From NCBI GenBank assembly GCA_947063855.1, contig CAMSTW010000025.1, positions 1 to 43,659 on the forward strand: DNA of 43,659 bases, given 5' to 3'. The translations under genes and the position numbers were made by a program. Below are positions 38,756 through 43,659 of the stretch, piece by piece (within the stretch, counting starts at the first letter, position 1; each line of letters starts with the position of its first letter). A model generated the notes under the pieces. It did no database searches, was not told the origin of the DNA, and saw only the letters and a program-made list of their open reading frames with translations. The DNA is from an uncultured Dorea sp. GTDB taxonomy: Bacteria; Bacillota; Clostridia; Lachnospirales; Lachnospiraceae.

Positions 38756-38807
38756 GAGTATGAGTATATTATTGCAGAAATTTTGCAGAAATTTTTATGA
38801 ATATCAA

Positions 38808-38836
38808 TTGACAGTGAGGTATATTTACGTTAATAT
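38808..38836 (+). promoter_or_regulatory. Strong promoter of the small RNA / DUF3800 unit
   Basis: A consensus TTGACA at 38808-38813, a 17 bp spacer and TAATAT at 38831-38836, predicting a start of transcription near 38843. It is among the best promoters in the window. Confidence 0.7.
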
Positions 38837-38842
38837 TAACAT

Positions 38843-38926
38843 ATGAATAAGTCAGTGGTATCACTGATTGGGCTGGTCGAAAGACCCTGGTCCACCGAAC
38901 GGCGGGGAATTTCCCCGCTATTTTTG
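38843..38926 (+). ncRNA. Candidate structured RNA upstream of a DUF3800 gene
   Basis: About 84 nt between a strong promoter and an intrinsic terminator, ending 35 nt before the DUF3800 start codon. Three hairpins are visible: an 8-bp stem at 38850-38869 (core TCAGTG/CACTGA, loop GTAT), a hairpin at 38871-38893 built on GGTC-GAAA-GACC, a GNRA tetraloop, and the terminator stem at 38902-38918. CTGGTC occurs twice (38873 and 38887). Structured RNAs near DUF3800 genes are known from comparative-genomics surveys under the name DUF3800 motifs; which class this might be cannot be judged here. It may be an independent small RNA or a leader with attenuation. Confidence 0.6.
38902..38925 (+). terminator. 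Intrinsic terminator between the small RNA and the DUF3800 gene
   Basis: A perfect stem GCGGGGA / TCCCCGC with a 3-nt loop, followed by TA and TTTTT. Transcripts must read through it to express the DUF3800 gene unless another promoter is used. Confidence 0.8.
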
Positions 38927-38961
38927 TCAGGGAAATCAAAGAGGGATGAAGGAAATAATCT

Positions 38962-39642
38962 ATGGCTGAAAAGATTTTAAGTGTTTTTATAGATGAATCA
39001 GGTGATTTTGGGCCATATGATTTTCATGCGCCATATTATCTGGTTGCAATGGTCTTACATAATCAGGATGTTGATATTAGTAAAAATATTGAGGATTTGG
39101 AGAGTCATTTGACAAACATTGGATATAAACAGCATGCCATCCATACGGGACCGTTGATCCGCAGGGAATCCGTTTATGCCAATGATCTTATGGAAGAACG
39201 CAAAAGGCTTTTTAACGCATTATTTAATTTTACCCGTAAATTGAATTTATATTATGTTTGTGCCAAAATACGGAAAGATGAATGTCCGGATGCAATTACG
39301 TTAACAGCGAGAATATCAAAAGTGATTGCAGGAATACTTAAAGATCATCGAAATTTTCTGGAGCGGTTTAACCGCATTATAGTCTATTATGACAATGGGC
39401 AGATTGAACTTACTAAGATTCTGATTTCTGTTTTTAATACACTTTATACCCATGTAGAGTTCCGAAAAGTAAAACCTGTAGATTATAAATTGTTTCAGGC
39501 GGCTGACCTGATTTGTACGATGGAACTACTTGCGGAAAAAGCAGAGTCTAATTCATTTTCAAGGTCGGAACAAGAATTCTTTTGTTCAATACGTGACTTT
39601 AAAAAGAACTATCTTAAGCCATTATTGAAGAAACATTTATAA
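38962..39642 (+). CDS. DUF3800 domain protein
   Basis: A 226-residue soluble protein of family DUF3800, recognised by the start SVFIDESGDFG (D11, E12, D15), the middle IIVYYDNGQ (D144) and the late KLFQAADLICTMELLAEK (D182). The spacing of acidic residues at the ends of predicted strands suggests a metal-dependent nuclease-like site, which is inference. The gene is visibly richer in A and T than its neighbours, a sign of transfer. GAGGGATGAAGGA lies before the ATG. It follows a small structured RNA under a common promoter. It is inserted between two ABC exporter loci and has no partner gene besides the RNA. Function in the cell is unknown. Confidence 0.85.
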   Translation: MAEKILSVFIDESGDFGPYDFHAPYYLVAMVLHNQDVDISKNIEDLESHLTNIGYKQHAIHTGPLIRRESVYANDLMEERKRLFNALFNFTRKLNLYYVCAKIRKDECPDAITLTARISKVIAGILKDHRNFLERFNRIIVYYDNGQIELTKILISVFNTLYTHVEFRKVKPVDYKLFQAADLICTMELLAEKAESNSFSRSEQEFFCSIRDFKKNYLKPLLKKHL

Positions 39643-39709
39643 ATTCATGAATCGTTCCTCTGATTCCTCTTTTCTGTTGGTTTTCGATTTCTGGCCGGAT
39701 GGAGCACTA

Positions 39710-39746
39710 GGGCTGACGGAAGCATAGCATGGTTTCCGGTCAGCCC
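39710..39746. other. Hairpin between convergent DUF3800 and FtsX genes
   Basis: GGGCTGAC-GGAA pairs with TTCC-GGTCAGCCC around a 10-nt loop. Neither flank has a clear T-run, so it may be a weak or factor-assisted terminator, or may protect the 3' ends of the two mRNAs. Confidence 0.5.
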
Positions 39747-43604: not shown

Positions 43605-43659
43605 AGCAGATAACGGGAATCGAACCCGCCTCTCCAGCTTGGGAAGCTAGCATTCTACC
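43605..43659 (-). tRNA. tRNA-Gly (anticodon CCC), cut by the window edge
   Basis: Only the 3' part is in the window. The anticodon stem CTAGC/GCTGG encloses loop TTCCCAA, giving anticodon CCC. The T arm is GCGGG-TTCGATT-CCCGT, the acceptor strand TATCTGC, and the discriminator base T, as usual for bacterial tRNA-Gly. CCA is not encoded. The D arm is only partly present and the 5' acceptor strand lies beyond 43659. Confidence 0.88.

Follow-up and report, generated by a model that had tools for sequence, protein, structure and literature searches.

The DUF3800 gene of this gut bacterium and the small structured RNA directly upstream of it form a module whose two parts are inherited one-sidedly: in a sample of 299 genomes, the full-length protein was never found without the RNA, whereas the RNA often occurred without the protein. 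This inheritance fits an RNA that acts as an antidote to the protein, which we take to be the most likely explanation. We put the chances at about even that RNA and protein together work much like a toxin and its antidote, probably for defence against phages. The three-hairpin RNA, terminator included, spans 38850-38925, directly 5' of the gene, in the window, by which we mean the whole 43,659-nucleotide stretch of DNA analysed. The features of the locus are as follows.

38808..38836, + strand: promoter-like site TTGACA-17-TAATAT (10/12 consensus matches, pattern scan)
38850..38869, + strand: 5' hairpin of 8 pairs with loop GUAU (folding; outside the Rfam model)
38869..38894, + strand: hairpin 2, two stems around a 2-nt bulge, with a GAAA loop (most conserved part; common to cow-rumen-3)
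38869..38916, + strand: Rfam RF02975 DUF3800-XI RNA core (72.9 bits, cut-off 37.8)
38901..38925, + strand: hairpin 3 with its U-run, the intrinsic terminator that separates the RNA from the gene (covariation, pattern scan)
38962..39642, + strand: DUF3800 gene encoding a 226-aa candidate nuclease of the RNase H-like type with D11, E12, D144 and D182 (ORF, Pfam, alignment, predicted fold)

The RNA and its gene

The first-pass annotation had proposed a promoter, a three-hairpin RNA with a GAAA loop, an intrinsic terminator and a DUF3800 gene, arranged as if to set the dosage of RNA and protein. Pattern scans, folding, Rfam and Pfam recovered every one of these parts, and the dosage-like order of promoter-like site, RNA, terminator and gene holds by sequence pattern. 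Promoter-like sites are common by chance in the whole window (3 found in the pattern scan, 3.8 expected); a site at that very place was present in 46/62 intact bacterial homologues, against 14.8% of shuffles, under criteria somewhat looser than those of the window scan. This and the other feature counts below, for 62 intact and 33 RNA-only bacterial loci, exclude duplicates, cow-rumen-3 records and loci with less than 160 nt upstream. Judging from the positions of these elements, the RNA would start near 38843, and the expected transcript would cover about 38843-38926, that is, about 84 nt. The terminator-like hairpin at 38901-38919 is followed by ATTTTT in the pattern scan (2 terminator-like sites found in the window, 0.5 expected), and the terminator ends 36 nt before the ATG at 38962, which opens a 226-aa frame ending at 39642. 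No tandem repeat was found in the RNA; the only one, a perfect 11-bp repeat of 2.2 copies, lies upstream at window positions 38772-38795, just 5' of the promoter-like site.

Positions 38843-38929 folded into three hairpins at -36.8 kcal/mol, compared with -23.3 +/- 3.2 for shuffled versions (z -4.2), none of which (0/200) folded as well. A covariance-model search, as proposed in the same annotation, placed 38869-38916 in the Rfam family DUF3800-XI (RF02975), well above its gathering score. Our own covariance model, R1, scored the window core at 81.5 bits, the window sequence being in its training set. Homologues showed the covarying structure expected of the proposed RNA. In alignment A2, 80 cores picked by hand for diversity, which raises the covariation, 12/17 pairs of hairpins 2 and 3 were changed on both sides, and 95.9% of cells paired. 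These cores were drawn from 136 distinct ones, a set that leaves out L163, L166, L170 and the cow-rumen-3 records. None of 500 shuffles reached any of five covariation measures, and the proposed pairs stood far above versions slid by 1-3 columns. Helix 1, the bulged hairpin, had both-side changes in 5/10 pairs with 96.1% of cells paired; the outermost U-A pair of hairpin 2 is a weak spot, unpaired in 27/80 cores. The 5' hairpin behaved in its own way: stems of at least 6 Watson-Crick pairs were present in 51% of 136 loci, against 6.5% of shuffles, and the 57 bacterial stems of at least 6 pairs held 46 distinct 5' arms, indicating that place and shape are kept while the sequence changes. The RNA is already a curated Rfam family, so the RNA-protein pair itself is not new. 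In common with the curated pair of RF02975 and PF12686, the window has an RNA core that scores above the family's cut-off and, immediately 3' of it, a DUF3800 gene; it differs from RF02975 in its 5' hairpin outside the model. The new findings include the covariation support for the core and the sequence-variable 5' hairpin. On one contig, two different DUF3800-XI RNAs (L059:1663-1717 and L059:3080-3134) point towards each other and enclose a single DUF3800 gene.

The 226-aa protein matched Pfam DUF3800 (PF12686) at 38.4 bits, against a cut-off of 21, and no other Pfam family. The nuclease-like residues that had been proposed held: D11, E12, D144 and D182 were invariant in 64/64 aligned homologues, and the predicted fold is RNase HII-like, with structure-comparison matches to RNase HII and also to Piwi and Argonaute. 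A dN/dS of 0.04-0.11 in seven pairs with dS 0.3-1.9 shows purifying selection at the level of the coding sequence. The window protein matched nothing in PADLOC, where 64 family members yielded one weak match to each of five families; the single NCBIfam match was weak and fell far short of the cut-off. A sequence search found no relative with a solved structure, and the only match below E 0.001 in the viral structure library was another phage DUF3800 protein.

One-sided inheritance of RNA and protein

We searched 299 genomes of the same bacterial family for the RNA with RF02975, using Infernal's stricter filters, and for the protein with a profile; both searches are free of the exact-pattern bias of the wider set described below. 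RF02975 gave 61 matches in 44/299 genomes, a lower bound because of the stricter filters. Of these, 55 lay above the gathering score and six below it, and a control genome, Thermus composti, also gave a sub-threshold match. The protein profile gave 28 full-length matches, one with an in-frame stop. The covariance model found the RNA 5' of 25/28; among the remaining three, two had divergent RNAs recognised by eye, in one of which two pairs of the outer stem had changed on both sides, and the third lay on a contig that starts inside the RNA. Counting the 25 model matches and the three found by reading, none of the 28 full-length proteins in the 299 genomes stood without the RNA. The window leader is thus common to other DUF3800 genes, and the RNA-protein module that had been claimed stands on its Rfam match, covariation, invariant residues, predicted fold and conserved layout. 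No RNA match accompanied two short fragments of the protein (G100, G121).

Reading from the RNA side, 24 of the 61 RNAs were accompanied by an uninterrupted full-length protein, 12 by a broken or cut one, and 25 by none, meaning no match at E 1e-10 or better; in 11/44 RNA-bearing genomes, the RNA occurred without any protein match. Excluding the six sub-threshold RNAs, these numbers became 23, 12 and 20 (n = 55), with 10/42 genomes having RNA and no protein match. Three of the 12 broken genes (G241, G039, G034) and one of the 25 loci without protein (G171:C36) lie near contig ends, and at least one locus counted as without (L007, G103:C9) retains an 18-residue protein remnant. A wider set includes loci from a genome collection, taken from the matches listed for an exact core pattern, so that conservation of the core is there by construction. 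Its 161 loci less 16 duplicates left 145 classed, of which 23 contig-end cuts were set aside. Among the matches listed, the remaining 122 loci comprised 65 intact, 3 frameshifted and 15 partial genes and 39 loci with no DUF3800; among them are viral loci, several near-identical pairs and also L059b, which has a neighbouring DUF3800 on the opposite strand. Some genes were broken by internal deletions, with the RNA left intact.

Where RNA-only copies could be compared, the RNA had changed less than its surroundings: in one pair (L078/L135) it differed at 2/80 sites and the upstream flank at 40/305, and in another (L056/L057) at 4/80 and 42/425, a small difference. Bacterial RNA-only copies had fewer promoter-like sites (18/33 versus 46/62 intact loci), U-runs (24/33 versus 54/62) and 5' stems of at least 6 pairs (13/33 versus 38/62), suggesting that part of them may be relics. 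We also considered a second protein partner for the RNA-only copies and rejected it, as their neighbours, judged by eye, were mostly unlike each other, with a few shared families.

The constant presence of the RNA beside all 28 full-length proteins would also be expected if the RNA were a working part of an effector, a nuclease particle in which it positions or activates the enzyme, with the phage copies acting as decoys or serving another end. The predicted fold, whose matches include Piwi and Argonaute, is compatible with such a particle. RNA and protein distances are correlated as well (Mantel r 0.69, 0/2000 permutations as high, 64 pairs), which is equally expected from linkage alone. However, no variable guide-like segment was found in the RNA core across the 80-core alignment, the RNA is conserved where no protein remains, and a quarter of the RNA-bearing genomes (11/44) have no protein match. 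We therefore regard a working part of an effector as unlikely. The one-sided pattern fits an antidote RNA; bacterial RNA-only copies can also be leftovers, which counts against the antidote reading.

RNA copies in viral records

A degenerate hairpin 2 pattern retrieved 23 viral contigs from IMG/VR, and a reversed-pattern control none; a cow-rumen-3 pattern retrieved 4. RNA and DUF3800 occurred together in 3/27 of these viral records (L031, L036, L041). In the other 24, which range from 5.8 to 193 kb and may be incomplete, no DUF3800 match was found (0/24); when records sharing 400 nt or more of DNA within the stretches compared are joined, they form 11 groups. tRNA genes lay within 3 kb of the RNA in 15/24 RNA-only records, or 10/15 non-duplicate contigs with cow-rumen-3 excluded, and 90/90 of those nearby tRNAs were on the same strand as the RNA. 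A tRNA was equally near in 4/62 intact bacterial loci, an uneven comparison since the flanks of many bacterial loci are shorter than 3 kb (for most of L001-L030, 1.5 kb). Neighbour proteins, sampled by scanning 67 of 81, matched phage families that included homing endonucleases, an RNA ligase, a DNA polymerase and a tail protein. In annotated collections of phages and plasmids, matches to the core did not rise above chance level, and one record of the annotated phage collection held part of a DUF3800.

In the phage copies (n = 15), the 5' hairpin was gone (0/15 with at least 6 pairs), and most lacked the promoter (present in 1/15) and the U-run (3/15). They kept hairpin 2, and most kept hairpin 3, the latter judged by eye; between the related phages L161 and L167, the inner stem differed by two pairs changed on both sides. 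The loss of promoter, 5' hairpin and U-run, together with the retention of the stems, indicates that it is the RNA itself that is preserved, not a gene switch. This bears on the possibility that hairpin 3 is merely a regulated, cis-acting terminator that sets DUF3800 expression, perhaps through binding of the protein. The position of the terminator, with its U-run (54/62 intact bacterial loci), directly before the gene is what such an attenuator would require, but 39/122 loci among the matches listed show no DUF3800 behind the RNA, and the phage copies mostly keep hairpin 3 with few U-runs and no DUF3800 to regulate. RNA-only copies thus disfavour a role as attenuator alone, which we consider very improbable.

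Five phage cores (L162, L163, L165, L166, L170) were not above the Rfam cut-off in a scan that left out L038 and L175; with R1 they scored 31-56 bits, L162 and L165 being in its training set. ROOL was found in the same stretch as the core in five records (L162, L164, L165, L168, L171); according to PMC12286853, ROOL near tRNA islands in phages was already known. Drum RNA (RF02958) adjoins the DUF3800-XI core in three records, L034:11384-11493 (88.5 bits), L042:3610-3719 (88.5 bits) and L162:3038-3134 (52.5 bits), overlapping it by 1-4 nt, so that in these viral contigs without DUF3800, drum and core appear arranged as if in a single transcript. L162 and L165 share about 30 nt beyond hairpin 3 and little further out, suggesting that an additional 3' domain may be present in the phage RNA. 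Four further candidates from a second pattern form (L230-L233) turned out to be one mispaired 15.5-bit sequence and were dropped as chance.

The 3' end of cow-rumen-3 (RF03083) is the same bulged hairpin as in the window RNA, with GGUCCACC, and, like the phage DUF3800-XI cores, cow-rumen-3 adjoins phage tRNA genes. Unlike the window RNA, it has a long unrelated 5' part and, by eye, no hairpin 3 of the window type, and its four viral records hold no DUF3800. The cow-rumen-3 RNAs at L173:13593-13738, L172:8-153 and L174:1062-1157, with tRNA genes beside L173 and L174, were above the Rfam cut-off for this family, and the whole-model match of the window was far below it (22.1 versus 86.7 bits). 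The DUF3800 RNAs were reportedly named in a 2017 survey by Weinberg. In a full-text literature search that did not cover this survey, no paper described RNA-only copies in phage tRNA arrays or the dependence pattern; nor, outside the survey and most subscription papers, was a functional study of DUF3800 RNAs or cow-rumen-3 found.

Transfer, related systems and a proposed mechanism

Comparison of flanks shows that a unit the size of a gene was gained horizontally; it does not show that the unit moves by itself. From promoter to stop, the window unit is 91% alike over 853 nt to that of another genus (L002, the same locus as L100, Parablautia intestinalis), and outside it the two are unlike within the 3 kb compared; another pair (L049 and L082) is 97.5% alike, with an edge near -77. 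In congeners, the flanking genes are homologous up to a break, and again after it, whose two edges lie no more than 16 bases from their stop codons. The gap between these genes holds other genes in 4/6 congeners; for the remaining two, the stretch compared gave no match to the second flanking gene. A precise empty site was thus rejected, and the occupied spot demonstrates gene-sized exchange only. One clade (L100, L127, L064, L053, L045) shares about 190 nt past the DUF3800 stop that are absent from the window, so the 3' edge is not fixed; within these shared nucleotides, L100 has, by eye, a short frame of about 50 codons after DUF3800.

Such sharply bounded likeness between otherwise unlike contigs, the other genes at the congener spot and the somewhat fewer promoter-like sites and U-runs of bacterial RNA-only copies would suit a selfish or mobile RNA-protein unit of 850 bp that spreads and leaves RNA-only copies as decaying relics. 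We hold this to be quite improbable: no terminal repeats, target duplications or transposase were noticed in the flank comparisons, the 3' edge varies, comparable RNA-only copies are under constraint, and the phage copies carry paired changes. With regard to RNA-guided mobile-element nucleases of the TnpB, IscB or IS110 type, which have element ends and a variable RNA segment resembling a guide, the core showed no such segment, and the ends were viewed through the flank comparisons.

The first-pass annotation had likened the locus to type III toxin-antitoxin systems; the layout and the inheritance pattern bear out this likeness, and membership does not follow. In type III systems (ToxIN, AbiQ, CptIN, TenpIN) as in the window, where it is read from sequence pattern, one promoter is followed by an RNA, a Rho-independent terminator and then the protein gene. 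Unlike in type III, the window RNA is single-copy and made of plain hairpins with no tandem repeats, and its protein, which matches DUF3800 only in Pfam, is predicted to be RNase H-like and is not of the ToxN, CptN or TenpN kind. The fold of ToxN differs from that of RNase HII. With no RNA repeats and a protein of another predicted fold, membership in type III was rejected. PMC5086642 describes the type III layout as excess antidote RNA ahead of a terminator and then a nuclease gene, and PMC3475682 provides, in the pseudo-ToxI of phage PhiTE, a precedent for a phage RNA mimic of the antidote. DUF3800 proteins with an RNase H fold are also described in PMC10910872 and PMC12669027, in type V-A2 and VI-F CRISPR loci. 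There DUF3800 is a Cas-locus accessory, which in V-A2 is joined to TPR domains and is said to have a catalytic rearrangement, whereas the window DUF3800 is a stand-alone gene with its own RNA. The window neighbours of the unit resemble, by eye, ABC transporter genes and not a defence island.

The one-sided inheritance and the RNA-only copies in phage tRNA clusters together suggest an RNA that keeps the protein in check, with copies of this antidote carried by phages. In the model that we propose, binding, toxicity, direction of control, trigger and phage resistance are what we infer. One promoter would yield mostly the short RNA, because the intrinsic terminator ends the transcript ahead of the DUF3800 start, and occasional read-through would yield the protein. 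When free, the protein would act as an RNase HII-like nuclease and harm the cell, and free RNA, chiefly through hairpin 2, would bind the nuclease and keep it inactive. If a phage disturbed transcription, RNA levels would fall and the nuclease would be set free, and phages of gut bacteria would respond by carrying the RNA core alone, often inside tRNA arrays. More tentatively, DUF3800-XI may be a phage-defence module whose nuclease is held by an RNA antidote, large gut phages may disarm it with an antidote core that they keep in tRNA arrays, fused to drum RNAs and beside ROOL, and cow-rumen-3 may be a second, fused form of the antidote. The same places also hold ROOL and drum, so the copies may be of some other use to the phage. 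In PMC7811196, an accessory Legionella DUF3800 gene, subtype unknown, scored as essential in a transposon screen and is listed with antitoxin genes; such essentiality is the opposite of what is expected of a toxin and counts against the antidote model.

DUF3800-associated RNAs are curated families for which we found no known function, and their asymmetric inheritance and nuclease-free viral copies raise a testable question of whether they are antidotes. If they are, this would be another protein-RNA antidote chemistry, built on an RNase H fold, and one reason for phages to keep small RNAs in tRNA arrays. Should phages indeed carry the antidote, the DUF3800 RNAs and cow-rumen-3 would gain a function, and phage tRNA arrays would appear to be stores of anti-defence RNAs as well.

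Several minor observations were made alongside. Behind the DUF3800 gene, an intergenic 28-nt sequence at window positions 39683-39710 recurs on several other contigs of the same genome and in congeners, as a small interspersed repeat. At the window end, a partial tRNA gene on the minus strand (43605-43659; Rfam 35.3 bits), its 5' end cut by the window end, was not reported by ARAGORN. The DUF3800-I RNA is rare in the phylum (2/249 genomes). In one of its genomes, a DUF3800-like gene precedes the RNA (by eye); in the other (L228), the DUF3800-I RNA occurs with a promoter, a terminator and a DUF3800-like gene in that order, between terminase-like and portal-like genes (by eye).
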